NCBI GenBank assembly: GCA_949710005.1
Contig: OX453287.1
Span: 15,966,560 to 16,030,559 of the forward strand
Direction: 5' to 3'
Length of the DNA: 64,000 nucleotides
Source of the DNA: Ricordea florida
Taxonomy: Eukaryota; Cnidaria; Anthozoa; Corallimorpharia; Ricordeidae
Both the position numbers and the translations under genes were made by a program. Shown piece after piece: positions 1,958 through 61,975 of the stretch. How positions within the stretch are numbered: position 1 is the stretch's first letter; the number at the start of each line of letters is the position of its first letter. The notes under the pieces are model-generated. The model did not search any database and was not told where the DNA came from. It worked only from the letters and a program-made list of their open reading frames with translations.

Positions 1958-2932
1958 ATTTTTGACCATATTTGTTCAAAGTCAGGCTTACCTTGATTAA
2001 GAGTTGGGTTTCCGATCAAAAATTTGCTTCTGGGATGCACTTGTTTTGTCTTTCAAACTCCGTTACGCACGACCTAAGCTACCGGTCGTTGTCCATTCAA
2101 AACACCGGAAAAACAATGAAGATAGACCAGAAAATACAGTAGAAACGTATCCCAGCAGCTTAAGAATAATTATTGTTACTTTTGACACAGTCTAGGTTTT
2201 AAATGTCCTCGAAATACAAGCCAAATCCACAGGCTCTTTGACAGCTAGGCAACGTGAAATCAAAGAGGTTAACGCACGCCGTTGACTGTGTTGCGTGACA
2301 TCACGCCACTAATTGCGTCCCGTATCCTGTCTAAAATAATACGTTTATATCCTGAAAAATTGAAACTTTGAAAGGATGCATCCATTCTTTTTTTAAATAG
2401 CACAGTTCGCGGTCTGAAACAAGTCTCAAAGAGACAGAAGGCGGGACATGCTTCACATAACTAAAACGCCGGTTGCGTCCTAGATCTCTCTTTGGGTTTC
2501 AGGACTTTACAAAATTAGTCAGGGACGGACAGAAAAGTAACAAGAGTAAAAACAAAGCTCTCCACGAAACGTTGTTGCTGCTTATCATATTTCTTTAGAT
2601 TGCCTTGTCTAACTTACTGATTTGGTCGATTTCCCTATTGCTGTTTTTCACTTGTCACGTGACATTTGAATTTCACCCTAATATTCACACAAATCTTAAT
2701 CAGGCCCCATAGTTATAGTGATAAAACGACCAGGCGAGGATCAGGTCCACTTCGCTGTCAAAACCGGAAAACGTGAACGCTGCCTTATGCGGTTAGTAGA
2801 TGTATTTCGCCGGTCCTAGCGCACCCCCTGGAACCAGGAACCAGGAAAAAAAAAACCGGAAAAACTGGCGCCCAAACCATGAATAAACATAAATTCCAAT
2901 GGCTGATCTTGATAAATTAATATGTTTGGTGA

Positions 2933-3397
2933 TTATTCCATTCTTATACCATCTTTGTAGATCTGTTGTACACCACTAGATAAAAAATCACTCTTCATAG
3001 TCCTGTATTCTAATTCAATATTTGTTAATTGATAATTAGGTGGGTTAGCAGAATTCGTGTAGTAAACAATATTTTTCACAGCTGCTAGAGTTAACTCGAA
3101 TTTCAAATTATCTCTCAAACCATATGGATAAAATACGCCACCATCGGTTAAAACTGGATGATCAATCGGAATGCAAAAGTTTCTTTCATGAATTTTAGAT
3201 AACAAAAAATCTTTGGGATGACTTCTATCTTTATTACTTGCATTTGTCCGCAATCTTCGGATGTTTTCGTTTGATGTACCCTGTCTTAATCGGTCACGTC
3301 TTTCTTTTTGGGATAAATAAAGGTCTTTGTATGTCATATATAAATCATATCTATCATATCTATCAATTTCATTAAGTGTTTCAATTTTAGTGATCAT
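2933..3397 (-). pseudogene. Fragment of a major-capsid-type protein of a cnidarian virus-like family
   Basis: A 154-codon open frame from the ATG at 3397. Residues 72-100 contain IPIDHPVLTDGGVFYPYGL followed by RDNLKFELTL, and further on NIELEYRTMKSD. I recognise this arrangement from multi-copy cnidarian proteins that I take to be double-jelly-roll-type capsid proteins of Polinton/adinto-like elements; that assignment is from memory, not a search. Full-length relatives are several hundred residues, so most of the protein is missing. It lies alone between the arms of the long inverted repeat. An in-frame stop about 50 nt upstream and one at the end delimit it. Confidence 0.5.
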
Positions 3398-3539
3398 ATT
3401 TGAAGCCGTTAAAATATACCAACAACATATAAGTTGGATCTATGAATGGTTAAGAAAAGCAAAATGATGGAATGTAGATATGCCTTCCATAGCTATTATA
3501 CGAAAATTAGCTGAAACTGTGGGTCGGGTGGTTTTCAAG

Positions 3540-3900
3540 GTTCGTTCTGATAAATTTGCATCAAATTATGATTTTAATTTTTTAGAACTTGGATTTTTAT
3601 TTTTGGGATTTTGATTTTGATTTTGATTTTGATTTTTGGGATTTTGATTTTGGTTCAGTGCTCTGTATGATTTGCTTGAAGTTGTTAAGTTTGCTTATGA
3701 TCTGATTTTGGGATTTTTATTTTTATTTTTGATCCGATTTTTGAGATTTTTGGGATTTTTGAATCTGATTTTTGAGATTTTGGATCCGATTTTGGTTTTT
3801 TTAAATCTGACTTTGAGGGTTTAGTGTGATTTTTCTGGATTTTACTGGTTTTTGCTGGTTTTGGGCGATTTTTCTTGTTTTTTTTTTTACTAGTTCTGGG
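3540..3900. repeat. GT-rich low-complexity tract
   Basis: Degenerate runs of GATTTT and ATTTTGG on the plus strand. The Lys/Pro/Ser-rich frame on the opposite strand is a by-product of this composition and is not counted as a gene. Confidence 0.8.
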
Positions 3901-4428
3901 TTCTAGGGGCTGCACTACTGTTCACGTTTTCCGGTTTTGACAGCGAAGTGGACCTGATCCTCGCCTGGTCGTTTTATCACTATAACTATGGGGCCTGATT
4001 AAGATTTGTGTGAATATTAGGGTGAAATTCAAATGTCACGTGACAAGTGAAAAACAGCAGTAGGAAAATCGACCAAATCAGTAAGTTAGACAAGGCAATC
4101 TAAAGAAATATGATAACCAGCTTCAACGTTTCGTGGAGAGCTTTGTTTTTACTCTTGTTACTTTTCTGTCCGTCCCTGACTAATTTTGTAAAGTCCTGAA
4201 ACCCAAAGAGAGATCTAGGACGCAACCGGCGTTTTAGTTATGTGAAGCATGTCCCGCCTTCTGTCTCTTTGAGACTTGTTTCAGACCGCGAACTGTGCTA
4301 TTTAAAAAAAGAATGGATGCATCCTTTCAAAGTTTCAATTTTTCAGGATATAAACGTATTATTTTAGACAGGATACGGGACGCAATTAGTGGCGTGATGT
4401 CACGCAACACAGTCAACGGCGTGCGTTA

Positions 4429-4892
4429 TGCACCTATCAATGTAAACCCCGTGGTGGGGGGGAGTGCGGGCAAGGGGTGGGGATTTGACCAAGGAGCAAA
4501 AATTCTGGTCAATTTCCCAAGGGTGGGGCAGCATATGTTCGTCAAATGTAGTCAAAATCCCCACCCAGGGGCAAAATAACAAATATTAAAAGACAAGCTT
4601 TGAACACACCTTTAACAACTTGTGACTTAAACTTGAAGTATCAAGATAAATATCGGTAAAAAACTCACCTTCTCCGAAACCCACGCCATTCCAAAGACAA
4701 GAAAGACGATGCCAGGTAGCCACGCTTTGTCTCGGCCCCAGTCTCTCTGCCGAACAAATCAAATGTCCCGACCCCCGAGCAAAGGTACTCGATCAAACCT
4801 CCCACTGAGGAGATGGATTCCTTTGTCAAATCCCCACCCCTTGCCCGCACTCCCCCCCCCCCCCCCCCACGGGGTTTACATTGATAGGTGCA
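4429..4892. mobile_element. 464-bp MITE, Harbinger-type target
   Basis: Terminal inverted repeats begin TGCACCTATCAATGTAAACC. It is flanked by TTA at 4426-4428 and at 4893-4895. The left arm of the enclosing inverted repeat shows the uninterrupted target, so both the boundary and the 3-bp duplication are exact. A TTA target suggests mobilisation by a PIF/Harbinger transposase. It has C-runs near the right end and no gene. Confidence 0.85.
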
Positions 4893-5206
4893 TTAACCTC
4901 TTTGATTTCACGTTGCCTAGCTGTCAAAGAGCCTGTGGATTTGGCTTGTATTTCGAGGACATTTAAAACCTAGACTGTGTCAAAAGTAACAATAATTATT
5001 CTTAAGCTGCTGGGATACGTTCCTACTGTATTTTCTGGTCTATCTTCATTGTTTTTCCGGTGTTTTGAATGGACAACGACCGGTAGCTTAGGTCGTGCGT
5101 AACGGAGTTTGAAAGACAAAACAAGTGCATCCCAGAAGCAAATTTTTGATCGGAAACCCAACTCTTAATCAAGGTAAGCCTGACTTTGAACAAATATGGT
5201 CAAAAA

Positions 5207-21229: not shown

Positions 21230-22273
21230 CTAAGTAGCAGTTTCATCGAAGTGAGCTGCCAGCGATCCCGGGTTCGCTTGCCACGCATTTCCCGGGCCTA
21301 CTTCACCAGTTTTAGGATAAGCCACTGATGGATTTCTGATCCTAAAAAGCTCCAGTACTGCTTCCCTGAGACGGTCATTCCTGTAGCAGTACAGCAGTGG
21401 ATTGAGAAGGGAGTTTAAGTGAAACACGGTCACAACCCAAAGGAAAAACGTGCTGTCATATACTGCAGTCCAGGAATAACCAAATAATGTGAGCAACATG
21501 GGACTGTAGCACAACATCACAGCCGCTGTTAACTGTCCAGTAGTTTTTGCAACGCTTCTTTCCCGGTTTATTCTCGCCATCGTGTTAGCATGGTTTGTTA
21601 AGATCGCGGGTCGAGTGCGAATTTCGATGTTGATTACCAGGTAGAAATATACAATGAGAGGTAAAGGAACAAGCTGCGGAACGCTGAGAATCGACAAAAA
21701 ATAAGAGTGTTGGTCCTTGCTAAGAACAGAGCAAAGACGCAATAAATCAGGAGATATGAAAAGTAACGCTGCTATCCACACCACTGACAAAATCTTCTTC
21801 ATTAAAGCACTTGTTACAATCACTTTGTACTGAAAAGGTTTTTTGATGGCTATCCATCTCTCCCAAGCGATAATGGTCAAGTACAAATAAGAAGACGTGC
21901 TAGCAAAAGCCGTGATTATTAGATATGTGGAGTTCACTGCACAAAAATAGTCACTGCGCGAGTCACTTCCGCGAAGAAATCCGTGTTGAGTGATAAAGAT
22001 TGGCTGTGATACAGTGCCTACCAACAGGTCAGTCACGGCCAAACTGCACAGAAGAATGTTACATTTGATTTGTAGTTTTTTCCTTCGCTTAACGGTTATG
22101 ATGATTAGGAGATTGAGAAGTATAGTGGGAATAGAGGCCACTGAGTTAATGGACACCGTACACCAACGAGTGATGATATCTTCTGGGTTCCAGGTAAAGT
22201 CCAGTGACAAACAGCACTTAAAGATGGCATTAACTTGACTTGAAAAATTTGCGGTGTCGTTTCCGCCTTTCAT
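21230..22273 (-). CDS. Class A (rhodopsin-like) G-protein-coupled receptor
   Basis: 347 residues from the ATG at 22273, single exon, intact. The N-terminus has NDTAN and FSSQ, with potential N-glycosylation. Seven segments carry class A signatures: LLNLLII (TM1 Asn), LAVTDLL (TM2 Asp), a Cys before TM3 (YFCAV), ERWIAIKKP at the end of TM3 in place of DRY, CYSP in TM6 in place of CWxP, and LNSLLNPLLYCYR (NPxxY) in TM7, then a short helix 8 and tail. Length is normal for the family. It resembles the large cnidarian expansions of amine/adenosine/melanocortin-type receptors, but the ligand cannot be told from sequence. It acts at the plasma membrane through heterotrimeric G proteins. Confidence 0.9.
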   Translation of the reverse strand: MKGGNDTANFSSQVNAIFKCCLSLDFTWNPEDIITRWCTVSINSVASIPTILLNLLIIITVKRRKKLQIKCNILLCSLAVTDLLVGTVSQPIFITQHGFLRGSDSRSDYFCAVNSTYLIITAFASTSSYLYLTIIAWERWIAIKKPFQYKVIVTSALMKKILSVVWIAALLFISPDLLRLCSVLSKDQHSYFLSILSVPQLVPLPLIVYFYLVINIEIRTRPAILTNHANTMARINRERSVAKTTGQLTAAVMLCYSPMLLTLFGYSWTAVYDSTFFLWVVTVFHLNSLLNPLLYCYRNDRLREAVLELFRIRNPSVAYPKTGEVGPGNAWQANPGSLAAHFDETAT

Positions 22274-22612
22274 TTTAGTTGGGGACTGTTTAAGGAAAGA
22301 ACTTCGTTTACTAAATCAACGTAGTTCTGTTCTCGTAATGACCAACGTTTAAACTAGCAGTTCGCCTTACTACTTAAATTTTGAATTCCAACTTGCTGCA
22401 GTTAAGGGAATGTTTTGCGCTTATGTAAAACTGGCCTTGAAAGAACTTGGTTCACTAAATCAACTTACTTCTGTTCGCTTAATGGCCAATGTTTCAACTA
22501 CGTCAGTCGGCTTTTCTACTTAAATGATCAATTCCAACTTACTGCACTGCAAGGAATCAGTTTGGCTAATGTAAAACTAGCCTTTTAAAGTATATTGCCT
22601 TGCCTTTTCCTG
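22274..22612. other. Non-coding region upstream of the GPCR gene
   Basis: Contains an internal partial duplication: about 22290-22360 resembles 22440-22510 (TTCACTAAATCAACTT and similar). No gene. It ends with CTG, the left target duplication of the next element. Confidence 0.5.
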
Positions 22613-31303: not shown

Positions 31304-33425
31304 TGATTACAGTAACAGTGATTTTTGTTTCATACTTGACACTTTCAAGTAAAACAACACATCCCTCGATAAGGATTTCTTTGTGAAGATTCGAAAATAA
31401 TAACTGTTCCTTGCACATGTACAGCTGGTGAAGGAACATCGAATATTCTGTTGGATCCGTGTGATGGCTCTCAGTCTCCAGTTCCCAAGAAGAAATCGAA
31501 AGGGGGAAGTTATCATTGCTGTGTGCCAAATTGTACTGGAGACTCACGGTATGACAGCTCTTTATCGTTTCATCGAATACCGAGCAGACCCAGTGATGAC
31601 ACTTTAAGAAAACTGTGGCTGGTCAAAATTAGGAGAGACATTGGACCATTTTTCAAGGTACAACTATAACCAATATATATGTTTACCTCATGTTGCTGTG
31701 GTTCTTGTTTATTGCTGACATGGCCTTCTATTTCAATGTGAATGAGCTTTTCATCCGAAGCCAACCGTTTACATGTTTGCTGGCTGTCTTTGTACATTTT
31801 TTTCGCGTTAGCAGTAAAGTCATTATACATTATTAAAGCGCATTGCAATACATGGCCCAAAGTATATGCTCCAACTTTTTTTTCTTACTTTATTTCCATA
31901 TTTCTGGGTTACAGATTACTAACAAGACCAGAGTGTGCTCTAAACACTTCCTTCCTGAAGACTATAAGCCATCTGACAATTCTGGACGCCGCCTATTAAA
32001 GGAAGGCACTGTTCCAACAATTTTTGACTGGACACTACCACCAAAGTCAAGAAGAAAACTTGTTCGTGTTGTTGACAGGTATGTTGCTTACTTACCTCTC
32101 ATATACCCTGGGCATCATAAGACATTTCATAACAATGAATTTCAATGTAAGATTACATTCTCAATTCAACACATGACAGTCACCTCTCTCTAAAAAAACA
32201 TAATCCTTTTCTTTTTGGTCCTTGTACATGTAGTGGCACTCAAACCGATGAGAGTGAGACTGATGAAGGAGATGGAATTCCTGGTGAGTGCAGAACAGCT
32301 ATTATAGAACCAGAACTGTCAGAACTTGAGGCAACCAGATCTCAGCTCTTGGTTGTTCAAGCAGAACTGGAGGAACTGAGAAGGATATCTACCACTGCTG
32401 CCAGGGAAGCTGATTCAGCCATTCTTCAGGCTCAGCAAGAACTCAAGAGACAAAAGGAGCTTGCTGCACAGGAGCTTGCACTGAGCAGATTTGGACTAGA
32501 GAGGTTCTCCACCAATGATGATCTCATTAAGTTTTATACAGGATTTTGTTCCTACAAACACCTAACTATGTTTTACAATTTTGCCAAGCCTACTGCTGAA
32601 AAAATGACATACTGTTATGCTTCTGGTGTCTTAGATAGTCGCCCTAATTCCCGGGTAATGTTATTGATAGATGAATTATTTATGTTCTTGGTTAGAGTGA
32701 AATTAGGCCTCTTTGAGCAAGATCTTGCACAACGTTTCCATATCCATATTTCATCAGTGAGCAGGAAAATTACTACTTGGGCCAATTATATGTATTTTCT
32801 TTTGGGTTCTCAGTCTATTTGGCCTTCTAGGGATGACGTAAATGCAAACATGCCTGAGGAGTTCAAGGAACTCTATCCAACAACAAGAGTTATTCTAGAC
32901 TGCACTGAGATTTTTGTGGAAACACCATCATCTCTTCTCTTACAGTCTCAGCTGTACTCGTCTTATAAAAGCAAAACCACCCTTAAAGGTTTAATAGGAA
33001 TTGCACCACATGGTGCAATTACATTCATTTCTTCTTTATTTACAGGTGCCATATCAGATAAAGAAATAACTAGATGTTCTGGTATAATAGATCTCTTAGA
33101 ACCTAATGACTCAGTTATGGCAGACAAGGGTTTTGACATTGAAGGGATGTTAAGGGAAAGGGGGGTGGGACTTAATCTCCCTCCTTTTTTGCAAAGCAGG
33201 GACCAGTTTACGGCTAAACAAGTGCATGAAACTAAAACTATTGCCAAGCTTAGGATCCATGTAGAAAGAGCAATTAGAAGGATAAAAGAGTTCCACATTT
33301 TTGATTCACCAGTGCCCCTGTCGATGGTTGGCACTGTCAACCAAATATACACTGTTGTCTGTTTACTAACAAATTTTCAGGGACCCCTGATTCTGAAGGG
33401 TGGCGGTTCTATTGACAATGATTAG
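31142..33425 (+). CDS. ISL2EU transposase: THAP zinc finger plus DDE_Tnp_4 nuclease
   Basis: Four exons, join(31142..31157, 31425..31657, 31915..32078, 32234..33425): 1605 nt, 534 residues, all junctions GT/AG and in phase. Residues 35-110 form a THAP domain: CCVPNC (residues 37-42), later CSKHF with C91 and H94, then TVPTIFDW. Residues about 145-215 are a coiled-coil-prone acidic stretch. An HTH (FEQDLAQRFHIHISSVSRK, about 298-316) precedes the catalytic core with D360 (ILDCTEI), D435 (MADKGF) and E482 (HVERAIRR). The THAP domain should bind the element ends and the DDE core cut and rejoin DNA. No lesion was found. The first exon lies in the terminal repeat, so the promoter moves with it. 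Confidence 0.88.
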
Positions 33426-33706: not shown

Positions 33707-35333
33707 TTAGTTTAAGAAATAATTGAAGAAAAATGTGTCCACCTTATCCTTACTAGCTTGAAAGAAGTCTTTATCAAAGTAAATTCTTTGGCAAAAAAAA
33801 TCTGTATCAGTCATGTAGGAAAAAAAATCACACCAATCAAGACCAGTCAGACCAAGCTGACATTGAACCTGTGAGTAGTATTCATGATTTTCCTTCAATT
33901 TCCTCTCCTGGGTAAAAGGATCCACTCCTAAATATTTTACATTATTGAAACTGGTCTCCCCCTCTTTGACAACCTTAACTTCTAACAAACCGAATGGGTT
34001 ACGGCCTTGGTTTGCTAAAGTTATATCATAAACCTTTCGGTCTGGACTACAACCAAGCCAAGGACATTTTGGATTGATGACCAGTCCTGATGGATAGAGG
34101 TTAACCATCCCCCCCTTTGCTACATTAGCATAGACCATTGAAGCTCTGGCCTCCAGCTGAATACCTCTCTTCATGGCAGGAGTGGTGACGTGACGGCTGG
34201 GATTAAGCTGTGCAACAAGACTCTCAAAGTTCGAAACCCTCTTTGCACACAAGCCAAATTTGCTTGCTGTGATACGTTTCTTGCGAAGAAGGTGCCACAA
34301 ATTGTTTTCACTCTGCGTGACAGTTTTACTTTGCAGATCAATGGCAACTTCCCTTGTAACAAATAGAGAGTCCAATGATGCTTGCTTTTCAGGGCTCAAA
34401 CAAATTGAAACCCTATTTTCAAACCGGTCACCAGCATCAGGCAGTGGTAACTCAGGGTATGCCTCGCAGAATAAGTCATTAATTACGTATTCTTCTGATA
34501 ATTTCTGCTGGTATGAGAGGACACTGCCTCTAACAGCATGTCCAAATTTAGTTACAACAGAAGGTAATCCAGGGAGCTCTTGTACAGATGGAACAATAGA
34601 GGCCATCAATGGCTTGGGTGAGAGGTTGTTAAAATGACTCTTGCTAAGTATGCCATACACATTGGATGGGGAATATAGAGTGCTTTTAATGTACCTAGAG
34701 TAGTCAGCTCCCATCTGTGGTTTCTTGACCAACAAATCCTGGATTTCTTTTTGCTGAATAGTTTTACCCCTGGGAACACTCCACCGCTGTGGCAAACTGG
34801 TGCATGTTAAATCATCTGGCAAAGCCTTGAGACCATACAATTTACAGTGGGCCAGGTAGAAGAGTAAGGCTATTATATGATGGCAGTAGCCACTCATACC
34901 AGCAACACAGGAACACTTGGCATTGGTTATTTTGGGGTCCTCGTTAATTGCCTGTAGTGGCACAGACACTTCCAAAGAGTGTGGGGCTTCACTTTTCTTC
35001 ATTGATCTGAAGCACTTGCCTTTGACTTTAGCTTTATCCGGAAAATATGTAACTAAAAGGAGCAGCATACAACAAAATCAGCGAATACTCGGTATCTGGG
35101 AAATACACCACTTGCGTAAGCTTACCTTTGATATCATGGAGATAACCTGGTTCTGCAAAGAATTTGTAGGCCTTTGCAGTATTTTCACAGCCAGAGGACT
35201 TTTTTGCATATTCCTCAACCTCACTGAAAGATAGACTGGGGAATAAACTCAGATCCTGGGTCGTTGCTTCTCTTGAGTCTGACGCGGAGTTACCATCTGT
35301 ACGATAAATATGGATTAAAGTCTCACAGAACAT
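33707..35333 (-). CDS. ISL2EU YqaJ-type exonuclease/recombinase with SWIM zinc finger
   Basis: join(35333..35126, 35052..33707): 1554 nt, 517 residues. Donor AAAG|GTAAGC at 35126/35125 and acceptor TTTTAG|TTAC at 35053/35052 restore the frame (HDIKVTYFPDK). The N-terminal part has LSFSEVEEYA, then a SWIM finger CSCVAGMSGYCHH. The C-terminal nuclease shows RKKRITASKFG, GIQLEARA (Glu), LGCSPDRK (Asp) and LLEVKVV (E-x-K), the lambda-exonuclease/YqaJ pattern. The ATG at 35333 is the first in the open frame; an earlier ATG at 35498 in the terminal repeat has a good 16-nt exon, but I could not join it in phase, so the N-terminus is uncertain. A role in processing element DNA is presumed for the family, not shown. 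Confidence 0.82.
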
Positions 35334-47160: not shown

Positions 47161-47548
47161 AATAAAAGAAAAAAAAGCGAAGTACATGACAATGATGAAA
47201 GGAAGATAAAAGTTAATAAAATTAAATAAAGCAGTCGTTAAGAAGCAAAACGTTTGAACACAGATACAATTGCAAAACTTTAAACATTTGAAGTTGCAAC
47301 TGTAATCGTCTTTTACTTTTCGCTTTTTGCATTAAATTCAATGTTTTTGTTTCAATTGAAACTGTGTACTGATACTATAATATCGTTATATCGGGAACGA
47401 TTTTACGCTCGGTGCGCTAAAAACGCATCGGTAAATCGGGAATATCGTTATATTGAAGATCATTTTATTACACGTAACACGATAATTTTATTCCATAAAG
47501 CTGATTTGTAGAATTCTATACGCTTTATTTTCACATGTGAAAATAGCG

Positions 47549-47581
<33 letters not shown>

Positions 47582-48185
47582 CACCTGTGAAAGTATAACC
47601 AATCAACGATAGCGCAAGGTCTTTCTGAGCCAATCAGAATCGTGCATCGTTACATTCAAATTTTTTTTCAGATTTGGCGCCATTTTTAGCGGCGCGCCTC
47701 CTCCAGATTTTTCTTGCGAAAACGGAAAAGGCGGAGGAAAGCTCTAGGTTTGTGTCGGTTGGTTGCTCCGTAGACGAGTTTGTAGACTTTGTACAGCATC
47801 AAGAAAACAAAAACACATTGACAAAACACAGACAGATGTCTCGTTGCTCAAAAAAGTTTTAGTTTCAAGGAACGAGCTGAGAGAGAATGAAAATATTGAT
47901 GCAAAAGATCTGTCTAATTTTCTGCTTCTAGTTCGAACGAAAGACGGATAACAATACGAACCCACATCGCTCAGGTATTTTCTTTCACGCTTTCATCGTT
48001 ATTTATGAAAGAGTATTCCTCAATCATTATGAAGGAAATGACTTCAGCAGTTTATTTTCTTGATGTAGTGCGGACCAGTGCGATATTTTCCATTGCTATT
48101 AAATTTGCATTTGCTTCTGTTGTTAGTGAGTTTTTACTCAGCTCTAATTTGTGTTCAGAAAACTATTTCAATGAAAATTCTTCTG

Positions 48186-48217
<32 letters not shown>

Positions 48218-48219
48218 GT

Positions 48220-48345
48220 ACTTTGTACGGGGTTGTATTCACTCGTTTTTTTTTTTATCAAAAGCCATCACTCGCTCGTACCTCGCTCGTTCGGGTTTTT
48301 GACACAAACAACTCGTGAATACAACCCCGTACGTCGCACTTTCTA
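48220..48345. repeat. Short foldback repeat
   Basis: Arms GTACGGGGTTGTATTCACTCG-like and its inverse GTGAATACAACCCCGTACG, spacer about 70 bp. Confidence 0.6.
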
Positions 48346-48627
48346 TGAAGTAAACTATATATATCGGGGTTCTGTCCTATACACTTTTATTACTGTAACT
48401 TTTGCCGGGACATAGCATATTTATCGTTAAGCCGGGGTTGTCGTCATATCGAGGATCGTTATATCGGGGTTCCTCTGCACTAGAAATCATCAAGCAATTC
48501 CCTTTGTTGGGACATTTTGAAGTACACACTGTGTTTAAAACGTTTCATTACAACACTTATCCAGGACTACATTTCCGCCACTCTCCAGGTTGGGTTTTCC
48601 TTCATATAACCATAACCTTGTGCTAAT

Positions 48628-53910: not shown

Positions 53911-54336
53911 TTTTGTGAGTTAAAATTTGCGGTTTTCCTAGTCTAGACTAAAATCGTCAACCAATTGATCAGTTTCCTGGAAAATGACGCCCTATTCCAG
54001 ATCCAAACTTTCTGATTTCTATGACCCTATCCCGGATTAAACTGCTTGAGTAGTTGCAAAAGGCGGATTCTGGGACAAAAAGGGCGTGGTCAGGTAAGAT
54101 GGGCGTGGTCAATTTTGTCGGGGGACTGGTTCGGCTCGGCCAGAATTTTTGGGTGTGGTCCGAATTTTTTGTGCATAATTAATTAGTTGGGTCTCAACTT
54201 GTTCGATTTTTGATCGATGATTTTCTTTAAGGGTGTCAATTTTTTCGGTGGGATCGTCGAGTGGATGGGGTGGGGTCGGGGGTGAGAAAGTGGGATCTGA
54301 GTTTGGGGTTGGGAGTGAGTGGTATACGATTGCGAA
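53911..54336. other. Left flank of the virus-like block
   Basis: Two GGGCGTGGTC repeats at 54090-54115 and G-rich runs at 54235-54325 (ATGGGGTGGGGTCGGGGG) that could form a quadruplex. No inverted copy of this flank was found at the other end of the block. Confidence 0.4.
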
Positions 54337-54888
54337 ATGGACAACAATAACACAATGATGGTTGGCATGGCAACGTCTTTTGATTTTGTTTATGACAATG
54401 AAGATCGTTTAGGAGTTAATGATTTTCTGGAAGAAAACAAATCAGACATATTATATAGGGTCTCTAGGTTTAATCGATGTTTTGTTGAGAAGGTTCGTCT
54501 TGTATTTACTATGGCTTATTTTCCTATCGATGATAATGAGATAGTATATGAATATTCAAAAGACTTTGACAAGTTGTGTATTGATGACATCGTTAAGAAT
54601 TTATGTAAGGGTGCCGAAGATTTAGCCCGTGGAATGATAGATTTTGATCTTGAACAGCCATATTCTACCGGTGATCTACTTATTGGAGATCTTTCAGTTT
54701 GTGTGTATATAAGTTTCAAAGACGAGTTGTTACATGAGGTTTGGAAGGGCATACATAGACGTATTTTCATAAACGAAATCTGGGAAGAGCTAATGTCTGT
54801 GGCATGGCATCCAAGTAGGTTTGTATATTGGTGTCTTGATGTGGAAGAGTTTCAAGAGCTAAAAGATCGTTGGAGTAATCATTGGTAA
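54337..54888 (+). CDS. WHP-motif protein 1 of the virus-like block
   Basis: 183 residues from ATG 54337 (MDNNNTMMVG); the frame is open 18 nt further up but only from a GTG. The C-terminus reads ELMSVAWHPSRFVYWCLDVE. A C-terminal WHP-x-R-x3-WC motif is common in small proteins of mimivirus-like and other large DNA viruses. The rest is acidic and unassigned. A paralogue follows at 55004. Its 5' flank (GGTTGGGAGTG..GTATACGATT) resembles that of the paralogue, and a hairpin lies 10 nt after the stop. Function unknown. Confidence 0.65.
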   Translation: MDNNNTMMVGMATSFDFVYDNEDRLGVNDFLEENKSDILYRVSRFNRCFVEKVRLVFTMAYFPIDDNEIVYEYSKDFDKLCIDDIVKNLCKGAEDLARGMIDFDLEQPYSTGDLLIGDLSVCVYISFKDELLHEVWKGIHRRIFINEIWEELMSVAWHPSRFVYWCLDVEEFQELKDRWSNHW

Positions 54889-54898
54889 TCGTAAGGAA

Positions 54899-54929
54899 TT
54901 TTTTGTAACATGGATCGTGTTACAAAAAA
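54899..54929 (+). terminator. Palindromic hairpin after WHP gene 1
   Basis: Perfect 12-bp stem TTTTTTGTAACA / TGTTACAAAAAA with loop TGGATCG, 10 nt after the stop. A likely transcript 3'-end signal of viral type (inference). Confidence 0.6.
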
Positions 54930-55003
54930 GTATAAATTGAAATTTGTGTTTGTGGTTGGGGGTGGCTTGTATATGATTTTTGCAACAAAAGAGTTACATT
55001 AAT

Positions 55004-55306
55004 ATGAGTATGAATATGATGTTAATGGGCAGTATGTTTAATTTGGCAGCTTTTTATATTGGATATCGTCTGTTTGAGAATGAGGAGTGGTATAATGAGG
55101 AATGTCATAAAGAAATATTTAGGAAGGAAATTAAATATGATTTACTATATGAAGCAAATAGACGAATCCATAAACGTACTTTCTACAGAGATCTATATGA
55201 TGATTTGATGCCTGTGACGTGGCATCCAGATAGGTTTCTGGACTGGTGTGTTGACATTGAAGAGCTTAAGGATTTGAAGCAGCTTTGGGGAGTTGTTGAC
55301 TGCTAA
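55004..55306 (+). CDS. WHP-motif protein 2 of the virus-like block
   Basis: 100 residues from ATG 55004 (MSMNMMLMGS). A hydrophobic N-terminal stretch (FNLAAFYIGYRLF) is followed by the same C-terminal region as protein 1: DDLMPVTWHPDRFLDWCVDI. It is a shortened paralogue; the shared 5' and 3' flanks indicate duplication of the whole transcription unit. The Met-rich N-terminus might anchor in membrane. Function unknown. Confidence 0.65.
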   Translation: MSMNMMLMGSMFNLAAFYIGYRLFENEEWYNEECHKEIFRKEIKYDLLYEANRRIHKRTFYRDLYDDLMPVTWHPDRFLDWCVDIEELKDLKQLWGVVDC

Positions 55307-55320
55307 TTGTAATGAATTCA

Positions 55321-55347
55321 TTTTGTAACATGGATCGTGTTACAAAA
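55321..55347 (+). terminator. Palindromic hairpin after WHP gene 2
   Basis: Stem TTTTGTAACA / TGTTACAAAA, loop TGGATCG, 14 nt after the stop. Same stem core and loop as the first hairpin. Confidence 0.6.
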
Positions 55348-55406
55348 GTTGAGCAGGGTGTTAATTGGTTTAAAACCAGTTTAATCAATAAGTATACTGT
55401 GATACT

Positions 55407-55637
55407 ATGGTAAGGAGGTGTGTTCATGGTGACGTAAAGTATCGATGTGGGGCTTGTGGTAACGATCTTAGTTGTGTTCATGGTAGAAAAAGGACTTGTT
55501 GTAAGGATTGTGGAACTTATATGTGTGTACATGGTAAATATAAGAGTGTATGTAAAGTGTGTGTAGCTGCTTCTAAATTTTGTAAGCATGGTAAAGTTAA
55601 GTATCTATGTGATGTTTGTGCATGGTGGGCTAAGTGA
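55407..55637 (+). CDS. Four-repeat C-x-H-G / C-x2-C zinc protein
   Basis: 76 residues from ATG 55407. Four exact units C-x-H-G-x5-C-x2-C begin at residues 5, 23, 40 and 59 (CVHGDVKYRC, CVHGRKRTCC, CVHGKYKSVC, CKHGKVKYLC). Each could bind one zinc ion through Cys/His/Cys/Cys. Similar CEHGK-type repeats occur in giant-virus and algal proteins, usually of unknown role. It is basic, so nucleic-acid binding is possible. Third of the rightward genes, with its own downstream hairpin. Confidence 0.75.
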   Translation: MVRRCVHGDVKYRCGACGNDLSCVHGRKRTCCKDCGTYMCVHGKYKSVCKVCVAASKFCKHGKVKYLCDVCAWWAK

Positions 55638-55653
55638 TGGTTCATAAAAGACA

Positions 55654-55678
55654 TTTGTAACGCGTTTCACGTTACAAA
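55654..55678. terminator. Palindromic hairpin at the convergence point
   Basis: Stem TTTGTAACG / CGTTACAAA, loop CGTTTCA. Relative to the other two hairpins one pair is changed on both sides (A-T to G-C), preserving the stem, while the loop sequence differs. It lies 16 nt after the zinc gene and 15 nt beyond the stop of the leftward SLOG gene, so it could end both transcripts. Confidence 0.6.
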
Positions 55679-55692
55679 AGTTCACTTAATCA

Positions 55693-56061
55693 TTAGACAT
55701 AGACGACTATAACCTTTCTCTTATATTTCCTGGCTATCTTAATAGCTGATTTGGTACCTGGTGAGTAGTAACGAGAAGGCAAGGCCAATACATGCGTCGC
55801 ACACTCCATAATCGCTCTATTGCGAATTGGCCCAGCCGCCTTGCCATAATAGTCCCATTGAGGTTCAAACACCTTGAATGGGATCTCCTTTTCAATGGCA
55901 AAATCTCTGGCCAGTTCATCAACCCCTTCTGCACCCCCAGACACAATCAATTGTATGTCTGAGAGATCCAGCTTCCATTTCTTGAGGGCTTTGTGTATTT
56001 CTAGTTTCAAGAATATACTGTCATCGAGGTATCTACTGCCAACGATTGCCAATGATGTCAT
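55693..56061 (-). CDS. DUF2493-type SLOG-fold protein (YspA/YAcAr-like)
   Basis: 122 residues from ATG 56061. Order of motifs: AIVGSRYLDD (nucleotide-binding start), LIVSGGAEGVDELARDFA, PQWDYYGKAAGPIRNRAI, then a Ser-Pro-Gly-Thr loop and a beta strand (KRKVIVVYV). This is the DUF2493 (YspA, cpYpsA-related) branch of the SLOG superfamily, mostly known from bacteria and phages and thought to bind nucleotide-derived ligands. It is intact and full length. In an animal genome it points to viral carriage. It is the last leftward gene, 42 nt downstream of the membrane-anchored structural candidate. Confidence 0.8.
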   Translation of the reverse strand: MTSLAIVGSRYLDDSIFLKLEIHKALKKWKLDLSDIQLIVSGGAEGVDELARDFAIEKEIPFKVFEPQWDYYGKAAGPIRNRAIMECATHVLALPSRYYSPGTKSAIKIARKYKRKVIVVYV

Positions 56062-56102
56062 GATTTACGAAGTCATGATCTATGGATTGTGCATCTCAAT
56101 TT

Positions 56103-57657
56103 TTATCTGAATAACAACCAAGCTGTAGTTCCAACTCCAAGGATTAATAGTATCAGGTTGGTTTCATGATTACTAGTTGTTTCTTCTGGTGAAGATTCTT
56201 TGATTTTAGGTTTAGGATTAATCGTTGGTGTTGGTGTTGGTCGTTTAGTCTCTACAGCTGCATGTGGCAACTTGACTTTTGAGGATCCCAGATTATGGCT
56301 GATTCCCACAGTCTTAGTCTCTAGGTTTATGTTTGTGTTGATGCCAAATTTCATGTTATCAGTGGCCTTCATGAGGTTGTTGTTATACCCGACTACACGC
56401 TCTGTGTTTATGATCATGTTACTCGGCATCAACCACACTCCAGGGGCAATGGCCAAATCAAGCCTTAACTTAGCTTCTTGGGTAGCCAGCTGATACCTTT
56501 GGATCGAACTTGAAATGTCATTCTCGATCACACTACTCTCGAACAGAGCCAAGAATTCTTGTTGAGTCTCGATTGCTCCACCACCAGTACCCACAATCGA
56601 GTTTCTAGTGTTGACTTGAGCCCCCAATACGCAGTAAACAAAGGCTTCAGCAGATCGATTCAATCTGCCAAGTCCAGCTTTAGTGAGTCCATAGCCACTG
56701 GTTGGTATGAACCACGCATATTTGTAATCAGCAAAGTCATCATTACGGATGAATGAGATGAGGTCACCCTTTTCCTTCTTACCCCCATCATCAGCAAATT
56801 TACCACCTTCACCAGGCCATTGATCAGCCTCTTCATCGTAATTCCTTACCATATGGACGTTTTGGTATCCTCCACCTACTCCATGGTATCCAGCACCATA
56901 ATCGATGAATATGTCACCCAAACCCCCGTTTCTTCCACCTTTCCATCTGAAATCAGAATTGTTTGAGATGCCAAATTCAGCGCACAATCGTTGATAAGCG
57001 ACCTTACTGTAAGGGTTGTTGTTTATTACAAAAGGTTGCTCATCAGGTAGTGGAAGACTCAGTTCATACAATATCCGTCTTATGGTGAAGTACACATGAA
57101 ACTTAATGAAGCTACTCACGACTTTGGGGTAGTTGAGGCTCTCAAAAGGGCTAATCCCACAACCAGAGGTCGCACACCAAACTGCAAAGTTCAGTTGTTG
57201 AGGCCAATAGTTCATGTCGGGAGCGTTTAGCCACTTTCGACTTTGTTTACCAGTCTTGAAAGTCAACTTGGGAGGTGAATACGTTACGCATCTTGGCGGT
57301 GAATTTCTTCGTATTGGACACGTATATGTCCAGTGATGTCAGCATGTTTGTGGTGTTACTTGTGGGGTTGTCAAAGTCAACGGCAGGTATCGGGTAGTAT
57401 CGTTTGGTCATGGTTAGACTCGTTGGGAATGAGTTCAGTGTGTCATCATCAGTCAATCCAAGATCAATCCAGAGTAGTAGTTTCAAACCTGGTCGCATCC
57501 CATCAGTCCATGTCTTTCCAGAAGGGTCATCATAGGACATGATTGTCATACCATTATGTTTCCATCTAATGTAACCCCCATATTGATCAGTCACAAATTT
57601 GAATTGGTCAAGGTCAGCCTTTGGATACCTGTTTCTAAAGTCGTTGAGTAAGCCCAT
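56103..57657 (-). pseudogene. Large structural-type protein with C-terminal membrane anchor, frameshifted
   Basis: Two frames overlap by 20 nt: 57657-57247 (136 codons from ATG MGLLNDF) and 57266-56103 (open without an ATG at its start; TTG). The first ends at TAG/TAA-type stop directly after DFQDW; the second continues with KQSRKWLNAPDM. I know this family as one protein of over 500 residues in cnidarian genomes, so a small indel near 57250 broke it; the joined product is not given. Segments: YGGYIRWKHNG near residue 27; WPQQLNFAVWCATSGCGIS early in the second part; LMPSNMIINTERVVGYNNNL late; a Pro-rich stalk (RPTPTPTINPKPK) and one C-terminal membrane segment (LILLILGVGTTAWLLF). A virion or virion-surface protein is my inference. 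Confidence 0.6.
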
Positions 57658-57690
57658 CTTCTATCCAGAATTTGGGTAGAAGAGTTCAAA

Positions 57691-57698
57691 CTTTTAAG
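57691..57698 (-). promoter_or_regulatory. CTTAAAAG motif upstream of the 57657 gene
   Basis: Minus-strand CTTAAAAGTT, 33 nt before the ATG. The same octamer precedes the genes at 58002 and 58687. Confidence 0.4.
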
Positions 57699-57720
57699 CC
57701 ATTAGTTAAATGTAACATCA

Positions 57721-58002
57721 TCAATCCAATCCAAAATTTTTACGTTCTTTTTCATGCCAAAGTTCCATAGCTTCATTGATTTCTTTGTTATTTTTGAAAG
57801 AAGCCCACAGAGACTCGTATTGTTCTTCAGCGATTTTTTGATCTTTTTCATTCACCATGTTCATCAACTCATACATTACAACAAAATCTAAAGTTTTGAG
57901 TTTCTCTTCAAATGTATATTTTAGAGGTTGGTTGTTCATGAGATCTGTAATAGTACGTGCCAAGGATTTGTATTTCTCTTCACTGGATTGTCTATTAGCC
58001 AT
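57721..58002 (-). CDS. Small helical protein of the virus-like block
   Basis: 93 residues from ATG 58002. Highly charged and helical throughout (KYKSLARTITDLMNN; KLKTLDFVVMYELMNMVNE), no Cys, no signal or membrane segment. Family not recognised. Spacing to neighbours is 63 nt downstream and 68 nt upstream, with its own upstream CTTAAAAG. It could be a core or assembly factor; nothing in the sequence decides. Confidence 0.55.
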   Translation of the reverse strand: MANRQSSEEKYKSLARTITDLMNNQPLKYTFEEKLKTLDFVVMYELMNMVNEKDQKIAEEQYESLWASFKNNKEINEAMELWHEKERKNFGLD

Positions 58003-58025
58003 GATTATGTTCTTAGTATATCCAC

Positions 58026-58033
58026 CTTTTAAG
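58026..58033 (-). promoter_or_regulatory. CTTAAAAG motif upstream of the 58002 gene
   Basis: Minus-strand CTTAAAAGGT, 23 nt before the ATG. Confidence 0.4.
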
Positions 58034-58070
58034 TGTTTGGACTAGTATATTCTTTGTTCATAAATTATGG

Positions 58071-58687
58071 TTATCGTCCTCCTTTTAGTTCTTTGAGTAT
58101 TTCTTCGCGTACTCTCTGCCTCAATACCAATGGGTCCTCTACACTCATATTTTTTTGAGCTTTAGCCCTTATTTCAGCCTTCAGCTTTTCAAAGTTCTTG
58201 AGTTCTTCTATGATCAATGAGAACTGCTCATCAGAGATCTTATTGTCACGAAGGGCTTTGGAAACCAGGTCTTCAATGGTGTTTATCTTGGATCTTGCCA
58301 GTGTGATGGTGTTTTGATGCTTCACAGCTTTCTTGGACAGGTTCTTGGATATTTGTTGACATGCTATGGATACACACACAAATACACCACTTACTACACC
58401 CAATGGCAAGATGCGATGATTCCGACTCCACTAAGAGATGTGCCCAATCCACCAGCTGCCAAAACGCAAGACAATATACCACAAGTCGAGCTTGCATTCA
58501 TCAGTACACCCTTGGATCGGTTGTATTTTTTTAGCACTGTCTCATAGTGGTTTAATTCAGACTTTAGCCTTTTCAAAGCATCAGAACATTGTTGAAGCCT
58601 GAATTATGGCCCATCAGTGGGGGTTGGAGGAGGTGCAGGAGGTGCAGTAGCCTCTAAGTTGGGATATATTGATTTATATTCATCCAT
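58071..58687 (-). pseudogene. Coiled-coil/hydrophobic-hairpin protein of a multi-copy cnidarian family, two lesions
   Basis: ATG 58687 (MDEYKSIYPNLE, a Pro-rich head) meets a TAA at 58606-58604 in the same frame in which coding continues (FRLQQCSDALKRLKSE). The frame changes again near 58400, where GVGIIAS passes to PLGVVSGVFVC in another frame. Segments: N-terminal Pro tract, first helix, Gly/Ala-rich hydrophobic stretch about 50 residues long, then ARSKINTIEDLVSKAL and ISDEQFSLIIEEL, ending in a charged helix. Intact relatives of about 200 residues are frequent in cnidarian genomes. The stop and frameshift make this copy non-functional unless read through; the repaired protein is not given. 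Confidence 0.65.
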
Positions 58688-58707
58688 TTTGGAATGAATA
58701 TCACTTA

Positions 58708-58715
58708 CTTTTAAG
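58708..58715 (-). promoter_or_regulatory. CTTAAAAG motif upstream of the 58687 gene
   Basis: Minus-strand CTTAAAAGTA, 20 nt before the ATG and next to the stop of the preceding gene. Confidence 0.4.
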
Positions 58716-58718
58716 ATG

Positions 58719-59348
58719 TTATCTAAATCTTAAACTGAAAGTGATGGGAGAACCCTTCAGATCAAGTTTCTTCCATCCAATGTCGAGGATGTTTAAATCG
58801 AAGTGGTTTATGGGGCTCTTATGTTTTTGAACTGGAATGGCTGGGTAATCCTGGGATGGTATGTTGGCAAGGAGGTGTGAGGGTGAGAGTTTCACAGGTT
58901 CTCCAGATTGAGTCTTATTCATATATGACGACTTATTGTCCACTATACTACACAAAAGTCTCAGTGGCTCCTTAATCTGTATATTTATGGGGTACAGCTT
59001 TCCAGGGGCTATGATTTCAGGCACTCCAAGACCAACTTGTAGCCCTCTTGTAAGTTTAATGTTGAAACTCTTGTTGGAATACAGGTAATCAACAGTGTCA
59101 GTCTCAACGATCGATAGCTTGGCATTATCCGTATCGTCCAGAAGGATTGCGTGTATATCACGTAGAGAGTATGTGCCGGGTTGAATTATTAAGATGGGTC
59201 GATCCTCTTTGAGAAAGCTTTGTCTATCTTTGAAGTTGACCAATCGTTTGGGTATAATACAGTCAAGGAGTTGTATCTCCCGAACCTTTTCCAGTGGGGG
59301 ATCCAAATACACCCTGGTTTCAGACTCGTACATAGTAATGCTCAACAT
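58719..59348 (-). CDS. Beta-rich structural protein, candidate minor capsid (penton-like)
   Basis: 209 residues from ATG 59348, intact. The predicted pattern is almost all beta: VYLDPPLEKVREIQLLDCII near the start, LIIQPGTYSLRDIHAIL around residues 53-70, KSFNIKLTRG, YPINIQIKEPLRLLCSIVD, and a final LDLNILDIGWKKLD..ITFSLRF. I recognise the P-L-x3-K-x-I-x-L-x2-C, PPG-x-Y-T/S and terminal G-x-P-x2-F-x-L-x-F layout from multi-copy cnidarian proteins linked to virus-like elements. A single-jelly-roll capsid role is inference; structure prediction would test it. It starts 10 nt downstream of the zinc protein stop. Confidence 0.5.
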   Translation of the reverse strand: MLSITMYESETRVYLDPPLEKVREIQLLDCIIPKRLVNFKDRQSFLKEDRPILIIQPGTYSLRDIHAILLDDTDNAKLSIVETDTVDYLYSNKSFNIKLTRGLQVGLGVPEIIAPGKLYPINIQIKEPLRLLCSIVDNKSSYMNKTQSGEPVKLSPSHLLANIPSQDYPAIPVQKHKSPINHFDLNILDIGWKKLDLKGSPITFSLRFR

Positions 59349-59357
59349 TTTATTTGA

Positions 59358-59546
59358 TTACTCCTTCTTCATCTTTAAATTTCTATAATCAGCATCTGAG
59401 AGGAATCGAGTTTTGATGATGCCACAGCTGGAACATTTACACTTTATCATCGGCCTTCCTTTGGATGTTTTGGCAAAAGTTTCACTACCAGGTACACAAT
59501 CAGTCAGCTTTTTCTCTTTGATACAGTAAGTCTTCATTTGATTCAT
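59358..59546 (-). CDS. DUF5679-like small zinc-ribbon protein, one Cys replaced
   Basis: 62 residues; ATG 59546 overlaps the stop of the upstream gene (ATGA). An inner ATG at the fourth codon (MKTYC) is the other candidate start. YCIKEKKLTD, then KGRPMIKCKCSSCGIIKTRF match the layout of DUF5679-like proteins of large DNA viruses, where the first half normally has C-x2-C; here the second Cys is Glu (CIKE). The C-terminal CKCSSC may supply the missing ligand. Probably nucleic-acid or virion-core related. Confidence 0.55.
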   Translation of the reverse strand: MNQMKTYCIKEKKLTDCVPGSETFAKTSKGRPMIKCKCSSCGIIKTRFLSDADYRNLKMKKE

Positions 59547-60667
59547 TTACGTTTCCTTTTTAACTCTTCTATAAAGTAAAGCACAATCGCCATTATTAAC
59601 AGCCAAGCATGTTTACCCAGGAATGAAATGGCCTCTCCAGCAGTCTTGAATAGAAAGCTTACAATAGCACCCACCATCCCAGGCAATATCTCACCAAGTT
59701 TCTTCCCAAGGGTTTTTAACCCATCACCAACGCCTTTGCCCAATTTCGATAGCCCTTTGGAGAGGTTGGAGATTATAACGCCAATGACCACTCCAACGGC
59801 ACTCATGACAGCAAAGACTGTGAATCCGTATTTCTTGAAGATGGCCTTCACACGATCACGAAGAGGCATCTTATCACGTATTTCATCATTTTGTCTCTCC
59901 AGATCACTTATTTGTTCTTGATTGGAAATGATTCTATTCTTGGCTAGCTCTTCATAGGTGTTAACCCTTTTGATCAAGCTATCTCGACTTTGTTCAATCT
60001 TCTTCAGACTGGCCAAGTCTTTCTTGTTCTTATCAATCTCATCTTTGTATACTTTCAAATCATTCAACAAAGTTTCTGCATATAGTCTTGCATCAACCTT
60101 TTCTTTCACTGCAGTTTCGAGATAACTCTCACTTTCAGCGATTCTGGTTTGATGTCGTTCAATTATACCCCTCAACTCTTTCTCAAGTGTAACATATCGA
60201 TCAATTTCGAATTGACTTGTTTCCGTGACTGCTCTTAACCCGTCTAATGCATTACGTAAATCCTTAATTTCTTCATTGGCTTCATTCAAATCAGCAATTA
60301 GTTTGTTATTATTCAGAACAAGATTCTGAGAATCCATACCAATTGATCTCTTGATTGTCTCTGGAAGTCGGTCATATTTCACCAAATCCCCTTTGGAGTT
60401 GATAAGTAAATGCTCCCTATTGTTGGATCGATCGGTCAGTCTGACCCAAACTCCTTCATCATCGATTCTTGCACTGAATGGTGAATTTAGTGGGTCGAAA
60501 TTGTAGAACTTCTCTTCTATCTTTCTGAAAGCGCGAGCCCTATTGTCTTCTTTACTTTCCACAATCAGTGGAGATTTTTCATCAATTGGATCTAGGTATA
60601 TGGTATCACCACCTGCAGCACCAGGCTCATTTAATATAGTTGGATCAAGGGTATCGTCGGTGTCCAT
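59543..60667 (-). CDS. Coiled-coil protein with C-terminal membrane-active region
   Basis: 374 residues from ATG 60667 (MDTDDTLDPT); the frame extends 12 nt upstream only to a TTG. N-terminal about 110 residues globular (WVRLTDRSNNREHLLINSKG); residues about 110-265 coiled coil; then LRDRVKAIFKKYGFTVFAVM and a hydrophobic segment (AVGVVIGVIISNL). A Gly/Lys amphipathic stretch (SKGLSKLGKGVGDGLKTLGK) follows, then a second hydrophobic part ending in a basic tail (EELKRKRK). The same C-terminal organisation (KxxGxTxxAVxxAxGxxIG.. LPGxxGAI) occurs in an abundant cnidarian protein family. It may act at membranes during virion entry or assembly; inference only. Intact. Confidence 0.6.
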   Translation of the reverse strand: MDTDDTLDPTILNEPGAAGGDTIYLDPIDEKSPLIVESKEDNRARAFRKIEEKFYNFDPLNSPFSARIDDEGVWVRLTDRSNNREHLLINSKGDLVKYDRLPETIKRSIGMDSQNLVLNNNKLIADLNEANEEIKDLRNALDGLRAVTETSQFEIDRYVTLEKELRGIIERHQTRIAESESYLETAVKEKVDARLYAETLLNDLKVYKDEIDKNKKDLASLKKIEQSRDSLIKRVNTYEELAKNRIISNQEQISDLERQNDEIRDKMPLRDRVKAIFKKYGFTVFAVMSAVGVVIGVIISNLSKGLSKLGKGVGDGLKTLGKKLGEILPGMVGAIVSFLFKTAGEAISFLGKHAWLLIMAIVLYFIEELKRKRK

Positions 60668-60701
60668 ATTAGTGTTCAAATATGGAAACCTCTAAATTAA
60701 T

Positions 60702-60965
60702 TCAAAAGTCTCGTATATTCATATCGTTTGGGTCCCATATTTCATCGCGGAAACCAGTCTTTGAATTACAGTCTGGGATCTTTCTAATTATAGCAATTGG
60801 TAAGACGCGCTGTTTGAGTTCACTCTTGGCAATGGCTATAGGATTGAAATCAAATGGCCAATCTATGACTGGTTTACTACCCATCCTCAATTGATAAGCT
60901 CTAAATCCCACCAAACGAACATATTCATGTGGTGTTATTATGTCATCTGTTGTTTTGTAATTCAT
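60702..60965 (-). CDS. Rpb6/omega-like RNA polymerase subunit
   Basis: 87 residues from ATG 60965, which shares one base with the TAA of the preceding gene (TAATG). Residues 9-30 (IITPHEYVRLVGFRAYQLRM) followed by P-V, then NPIAIAKSELKQRVLPIAII and RKIPD, reproduce the conserved core of Rpb6: T-x-Y-E-x2-R-x2-G-x-R-A-x-Q-L, D-P-x2-I-A-x2-E-L, P-x2-I-x-R-x2-P-D. Rpb6 stabilises the RNA polymerase clamp. Cellular Rpb6 genes have introns and an acidic N-terminal tail, both absent here; ASFV and mimiviruses encode short viral Rpb6. Intact. It could recruit or modify host polymerase, or be a relic of a viral enzyme. Confidence 0.75.
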   Translation of the reverse strand: MNYKTTDDIITPHEYVRLVGFRAYQLRMGSKPVIDWPFDFNPIAIAKSELKQRVLPIAIIRKIPDCNSKTGFRDEIWDPNDMNIRDF

Positions 60966-61177
60966 TATATCCACTTGCTGACAATATATCCCAAGGCTAA
61001 CATACCGATAGAAACATAAACCATTTCTCCAGTCTTTTGATCTGAATTGGGTCGGTAATAGTCTGAGAATTTTGGGGGATTACCGATTTGATTGTACAAT
61101 CTCAGCGCTTCATCCGTCTTTGATATAACACGTTCTAAAAACAAACGGGATATTCTAAAACGTGATTTCTGGAACAA
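60965..61177 (-). CDS. Small membrane-anchored protein, 5' end lost
   Basis: 70 codons open to an upstream TAA with no ATG near the start (first codon TTG at 61177; the only ATG is at the C-terminal GEMVYVSIGML). Helical N-terminal part (ISRLFLERVISKTDEALRLY) and one C-terminal membrane segment (VYVSIGMLALGYIVSKWI). Its stop overlaps the Rpb6-like start. Sequence upstream of 61190 no longer looks coding, so the block is probably truncated here. Family not recognised. Confidence 0.45.
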   Translation of the reverse strand: MFQKSRFRISRLFLERVISKTDEALRLYNQIGNPPKFSDYYRPNSDQKTGEMVYVSIGMLALGYIVSKWI

Positions 61178-61660: not shown

Positions 61661-61680
61661 CTTGCAATAAGACATAAGAC

Positions 61681-61975
61681 AAGGTACATGGAAATTTGCA
61701 AGTACCTTGCAGCCAAATATAAGGCAGGGTACATGGAAATTTCCATGTACCTCGCAATGAGACATATGGCAAGGTACATGGAAATTTCCATGTACTTTGA
61801 AGTGACACATATGGTAAGGTACATGGAAATTTCCATGTACCTTGCAATGAGACATATGGAAATTTCCATGTACCTTGGAGTCACATACGTTAAGGTACAT
61901 GGAAATTTCCATGTACCTTGCCATATGTCTCATTGCAAGGTACATGGAATTGTCCATGTACATTGCTAGGATACA
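61681..61975. repeat. Array of perfect palindromes GGTACATGGAAATTTCCATG(TACC)
   Basis: Seven palindromes of 20-28 bp built on GGTACATGGAAATTTCCATG with TACC completing the mirror, spaced about 40-50 bp by variants of TTGCAATGAGACATATGGC. Some are imperfect (first and last units). The opposing frames rich in MEISMYL are an artefact of the repeat. Confidence 0.85.

Follow-up and report, generated by a model that had tools for sequence, protein, structure and literature searches.

A probable remnant of a Polinton/Maverick-type provirus, with palindromes at its gene ends, in the genome of Ricordea florida

Polintons (Mavericks; Polintoviricetes), including those of Hydra and Nematostella, carry genes for a major capsid protein (MCP) and a penton protein, and the MCP of a Hydra Polinton matched VP54 of Paramecium bursaria chlorella virus 1 (PBCV-1) (PMC4028283). 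An Ulp1/adenain protease occurs in 74% of Polintons (PMC4028283), cnidarian MCPs lie outside the main Maverick/animal cluster (PMC10120064), and meldviruses combine an adinto-like PolB and integrase with virion proteins like those of nucleocytoplasmic large DNA viruses (NCLDV) (PMC11071296). Here we describe a block of virus-like genes at positions 54,049-61,126 of a 64,000-nucleotide stretch (hereafter, the window) of the corallimorpharian Ricordea florida, taken from contig C16 (15,966,560-16,030,559) of a 537.8-Mb, 48-contig genome. The block is very likely the degraded right-hand part, left-truncated and frameshifted, of a Polinton/Maverick-type provirus. Its longer copies share with Polintons, notably the cnidarian ones (Hydra, Nematostella), a PolB-like gene, an rve integrase, a packaging ATPase, a putative NCLDV-like MCP, a penton-like protein and (AGT)2/(ACT)2 termini, and appear to differ from Polintons as a group in having no recognised Ulp1 protease, an Rpb6-like gene, hairpins past the stop codons, and the p515 protein family. 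A preliminary description, made from the sequence alone, had suggested an undescribed lineage; given the published cnidarian Polintons with PBCV-1-like capsids and the cnidarian capsids that do not group with the main Maverick cluster, this is right only in part.

The identification rests on other copies in the same genome. A 370-aa piece of p515 matched at least 111 genomic places, 107 of them stop-free in the matched stretch and mostly lying in frames of ~515 aa, and the MCP matched at least 101 (97 stop-free); both lists include the window or the query copy. We fetched 10-kb flanks around 10 of the listed p515 places and compared them with the window (11 copies in all). The gene order, for which a search had been proposed, was kept across the 10 fetched copies: PolB (+), integrase (-), MCP, ATPase, p181, p364, p101, p136, p134, then (where present) Rpb6, a coiled-coil gene, a DUF5679-like gene, penton, p202, p93/p99, p515 and SLOG, followed by CxHG and WHP genes on the opposite strand. 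With gene content and order shared among these copies, the block is more than a product of chance. Single genes are broken or unrecognised in several copies, no copy being demonstrated intact throughout, and copy 9 has an extra WHP gene to the left of PolB.

Both ends were located in five of the ten copies, and all five read AGTAGT..ACTACT with perfect 5-bp target duplications (CATTG, TCACT, AAGTA, GACAC, and GCGGA), giving full lengths of 16,328-18,421 bp. Terminal inverted repeats (TIRs), aligned in these five copies and not in that of the window, extend over 203-417 columns at 73-100% identity. At the right end, ACTACT is present in nine of ten copies including the window, copy 7 being the exception; copy 9 was not pinned. 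The empty site of copy 4 (contig C9) is found in the window itself (47464-48364), as an unoccupied copy of a repeat. The left flank of copy 4 corresponds to 47,464-47,595 (97.7%) and the right flank to 47,591-48,364 (93.5%); since the two overlap by exactly AAGTA, the 5-bp duplication is confirmed for this copy. Bounded copies with such termini, TIRs and target duplications have the anatomy of Polintons/Mavericks, although vertebrate Mavericks make 6-bp duplications (PMC8097293) rather than the 5-bp ones seen here. Together with the integrase, packaging ATPase, and capsid genes of the longer copies, these features bear out the earlier reading of the block as an integrated dsDNA virus or Polinton/adinto-like element. 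The accompanying proposal, that replication genes had been lost or were never present, applies to the truncated window copy and not to the lineage, whose full-length copies carry the PolB-like gene and the rve integrase.

The integrase matched rve (PF00665) at 2.5e-7 (31.3 bits, against a cut-off of 32.6) and a PHROG transposase at 8.1e-9. Adintovirus integrases have a chromodomain at the C-terminus; for the 329-aa integrase Pfam gave rve and no chromodomain, and a Stylophora relative of the PolB carries both rve and PF00385. For the packaging ATPase, Pfam gave Pox_A32 (2.3e-11), and for the MCP, Capsid_N (3.4e-5 in one copy and 0.012 in another); the MCP had no PDB profile match. In the PolB-like protein, what we take to be the exonuclease and polymerase motifs are invariant or nearly so among 14 aligned sequences, and the named entries among its 120 best relatives are from Nematostella (2), Stylophora, and Exaiptasia; in Pfam, PHROG, PDB, and phage searches the protein had no polymerase match. 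The model of the 209-aa protein, a fold check that the preliminary description had called for, has good confidence and looks penton-like: pentons come first among its viral and PDB matches, with low TM-scores, namely the mavirus penton in the PDB and a MELD virus penton in BFVD. The p515 protein has 1036 database relatives and a low-confidence AlphaFold model. No protease family was found by Pfam in 26 protein entries, a search that a divergent protease could escape. On these matches, linear units of 16.3-18.4 kb would be inserted by the rve integrase, which would generate the 5-bp target duplications; they may copy themselves with a protein-primed PolB, as the motifs suggest, and the A32-type ATPase would package their DNA in a capsid predicted, from Pfam and fold matches, to be built of a double-jelly-roll MCP and a single-jelly-roll penton.

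Several related systems share parts of this gene set. Meldviruses appear to be chimeras of the same kind and supply the best BFVD match to the penton; the term "Rpb6" is absent from the main text of PMC11071296. Polinton-like viruses (PLVs) have the MCP, penton, and ATPase without a protease (PMC4642659), as may be the case here, but most of them have no rve integrase, which this element does carry. An endogenous NCLDV fragment would account for an Rpb6-like gene, an A32-type ATPase, and a Capsid_N-type MCP. Nucleocytoviricota, however, have large genomes with a core replication/transcription gene set, whereas the five copies with measured lengths are closed units of 16.3-18.4 kb; units of this size with terminal repeats and target duplications contradict such a fragment, the core replication set was not seen among the listed open reading frames (ORFs; by eye and Pfam), and we consider this origin extremely improbable. 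Fainter still is the prospect of a host gene cluster, in favour of which nothing was found, and which is contradicted by dispersed near-identical copies (at the at least 111 and 101 places above) and by homology that stops at the termini. Neither single-copy host genes with introns nor the absence of a capsid-like fold, the two outcomes named beforehand as counting against a viral origin, was encountered.

In the window, the element occupies 54,049-61,126 (7.1 kb) instead of the 54337-61177 first proposed: it starts at the terminal AGTAGT, AGTAGTTGC, and its similarity to other copies ends inside gene p134, at 61,126. The ORF list and homology confirm the compact, intronless organisation in two opposing transcription blocks, with 12 genes, a stub included, between 54,337 and 61,126, three on the + strand (54337-55637) and nine on the - strand (55693-61126). 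The first count was about 14, but the ORFs of 136 and 370 aa are pieces of a single frameshifted gene and the supposedly separate 89-aa ORF belongs to a frameshifted gene of ~202 aa; in place of many 1-4 nt overlaps there are only two (59543-59546, and p134/Rpb6 at 60965). The two frameshifted genes are p515 and p202; p134 is truncated at 61,126. The partner end (ACTACT followed by the flank gcttg) is absent from the window. The features are as follows:

54044-54048, no strand: flank gcttg beside the right terminus, expected to be one half of a target duplication of 5 bp whose partner is lost
54049-54336, +: right terminal region from AGTAGTTGC to the first gene, holding one TIR arm
54337-54888, +: WHP-motif accessory gene 1 (WHP1), 183 aa, no Pfam or PHROG family
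54899-54929, no strand: perfect palindrome, arms 12, loop 7, 10 nt past the WHP1 stop
55004-55306, +: WHP-motif accessory gene 2 (WHP2), 100 aa, 45% identical to WHP1 over 53 aa
55321-55347, no strand: perfect palindrome, arms 10, loop 7, 14 nt past the WHP2 stop
55407-55637, +: CxHG-repeat gene, 76 aa (75-518 aa in other fetched copies)
55654-55678, no strand: palindrome, arms 9, common to the convergent CxHG and SLOG ends
55693-56061, -: SLOG/YspA-like gene, 122 aa (PF10686, 6.1e-8)
56103-57657, -: frameshifted p515 gene, ~515 aa (pieces 57247-57657 and 56103-57215)
57721-58002, -: p93 gene
58071-58687, -: frameshifted p202 gene (tblastn pieces 58687-58409 and 58409-58077)
58719-59348, -: penton-like protein, predicted minor capsid protein with a single jelly roll, 209 aa
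59358-59546, -: DUF5679-like gene, 62 aa (PF18930, 6.7e-6, just below cut-off)
59543-60667, -: coiled coil with hydrophobic C-terminus (by eye), 374 aa, allele differing among copies
60663-60686, no strand: palindrome, 8-bp arms, 15 nt past the stop of Rpb6, with the start of the coil gene inside it
60702-60965, -: Rpb6-like gene, 87 aa
60966-61126, -: 3' remnant of p134 (residues 82-134), ending at the truncation point

The SLOG, DUF5679-like (26.6 bits against a 27-bit cut-off), and Rpb6-like proteins named in the preliminary description are thus present, and all 11 copies carry the SLOG gene, two of them in split form. The length range of CxHG apparently stems from ~54-bp tandem repeats (copy 9 and other right ends). 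Elsewhere in the window, a second element with long inverted repeats lies at 1959-5206; its arms (2270-2778/3920-4428, 509 nt, and 1959-2277/4888-5206, 319 nt) are 99% complementary, between them lies part of a related MCP, 140 aa long (2948-3367, -, 47% identical), and AGTAGT termini were not found for this second element. About 0.5 kb past the truncation point, at 61661-61966, tandem self-complementary units (AAGGTACATGGAAATTTCCATGTAC) form many overlapping inverted repeats. Other neighbours are a YqaJ/viral alkaline exonuclease ORF (33707-35077; PF09588, 1.8e-13) beside a DDE_Tnp_4 transposase ORF (32151-33425), and an ORF for a rhodopsin-type GPCR, uninterrupted for 361 aa (21230-22315; PF00001, 2.5e-29).

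Comparison among the copies suggests that the element genes have been under purifying selection. Median pairwise dN/dS (the ratio of nonsynonymous to synonymous substitution rates) is 0.09-0.23 for integrase, ATPase, MCP, penton, p134, p202, DUF5679-like, p181, Rpb6 (0.22), and SLOG (0.23), and 0.31-0.54 for the coil, p364, CxHG, WHP, and p136 genes; these values compare copies of one genome, with 4-11 copies per gene and non-independent pairs, and ORFs shorter than 85% of the reference were excluded, a filter that biases the set towards intact copies. From the low ratios, we infer that the insertions derive from lineages that made use of these genes. Median dS lies at 0.13-0.30 for ATPase, integrase, penton, p202, p134, p181, Rpb6, SLOG, and DUF5679-like and at 0.58 for p364; for MCP, coil, p136, WHP, and CxHG it comes close to saturation, at 1.0-1.9. 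The MCPs of copies 1 and 5 share 61-62% identity with the copy 4 protein, and the ATPases and pentons of these two copies are 92-96% identical to the reference. Because the MCP, coil, p136 and terminal accessory genes are divergent and the remainder similar, cassette exchange between co-resident or co-infecting relatives is the probable explanation.

The element pieces (138,107 bp) contain 44 perfect palindromes with arms of at least 9, against a mean of 6.0 in Markov controls (3-8 in 10 runs). Of these, 34 sit 10-21 nt past a labelled stop; 7.4% of random positions pass the test (-6 to 60 nt). There are about six kinds, found after the MCP, p364, p134/Rpb6, p99, SLOG/CxHG, and WHP genes. With arms of at least 8, palindromes near the stop occur for MCP (6/8), p364 (7/7), Rpb6 (6/7, within 85 nt), p99 (3/4), SLOG (8/9), CxHG (7/8), WHP2 (6/6), WHP (3/7), WHP3 (1/2), penton (2/10), and p134 (2/10), and for none of nine other families in this test, which left out PolB and p515; one of 146 windows inside ORFs held one. 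In the WHP/SLOG kind, two arm pairs co-vary (A-T or G-C), with the pair broken in 1 of 23, the remaining arm letters being fixed by the search pattern. AWTAAA, in turn, occurs within 80 nt past 12 of 156 stops, compared with 15.3% in Markov controls (some windows reach the next gene). Mimivirus mRNAs are polyadenylated at palindromes which, as here, vary in sequence and lie just past gene ends (PMC4402537), while the processing enzymes were not found in the element; similar 3' signals are known for Sputnik (PMC6723459) and transpovirons (PMC7031253). Such gene ends were not found described for Polintons in searches of open-licence papers.

The Rpb6-like gene was found in 7 of 11 copies, the window included, and was not found in the sequence retrieved for copies 1, 5, 7, and 9. 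Its best PDB entry is Rpb6 of RNA polymerase II (2.2e-8), and C147L entries, which we take to be from African swine fever virus, follow from 3.5e-7; Pfam Rpb6 scored 5.7e-4 (20.3 bits, under the cut-off of 26). In the genome, PF01192 is above cut-off in at least five places (150 of 256 candidates scored); the top-scoring place, L043 (C2:22178700-22179060), is a diverged Rpb6-like stretch with 24 of 57 residues identical to the element's. No Polinton with Rpb6 was found in the same body of papers, and the part of PMC11464507 consulted has nothing on an RNA polymerase subunit in a Polinton.

The Rpb6-like gene and the giant-virus-style hairpins hint that the element genes may be read in a virus-type manner. 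In this picture, machinery of virus type would produce the mRNA ends at the hairpins past the stops, instead of at AATAAA signals, and the Rpb6-like protein would adapt or recruit an RNA polymerase. We put hairpin-type transcript ends at about even odds. Two results weigh against this picture: AWTAAA is present after Rpb6 (5/7) and p136 (5/10), and a folding-energy test discriminated less well (0.157 after stops, 0.043 in ORFs, and 0.133 before starts).

Animal Mavericks are usually regarded as nuclear elements. A conventional nuclear Maverick, read by host RNA polymerase II, would have palindromes that serve as mRNA-stability, insulating, or protein-binding elements and an Rpb6 captured as an accessory, and we hold this to be quite possible, if short of probable. 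The AGT-type termini resemble those of vertebrate Mavericks (PMC8097293), and the WHP, SLOG, and CxHG palindromes are of one sequence type, as binding sites might be. Less easily accommodated are palindromes of unrelated sequence 10-21 nt past unrelated genes, the scarcity of AWTAAA, and the low dN/dS of Rpb6.

Alternatively, the element could be a virophage-like satellite, integrated in the genome and depending for its activation and transcription on a giant-virus-like helper that infects the animal. Like mavirus, it combines a PolB-like gene with an rve integrase, integrates into the host genome (PMC6723459), and has a penton whose best PDB match is that of mavirus, and for Sputnik and transpovirons both hairpin 3' signals and regulatory elements of helper type have been reported (PMC6723459, PMC7031253). 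This reading is unlikely, however: no helper is known, the host here is of animal type, no protease was found in the element, no relative was found in IMG/VR (six loci matched a short nuclease-like stretch only), and no strong shared promoter motif emerged, the best 8-mer occurring in 3 of 20 families. Also doubtful is a reading that joins these elements, in which an integrating, animal-infecting, virophage-like Polinton would end its transcripts at hairpins, engage a giant-virus-type RNA polymerase via its own Rpb6-like subunit, and swap capsid cassettes among copies stored in the host; dependence on such a polymerase would be its bold component.

This probable provirus and its relatives bear on whether Polintons live as viruses. 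The family is present in high copy number, with numerous capsid genes still open, indications of selection, exact ends, and 3' signals of virus style, and so allows a direct test of the question in an animal. Should transcripts prove to end at the palindromes, this would link animal Polintons to the giant-virus world, and genomes such as this one would be a place to seek an animal counterpart of the mavirus system.

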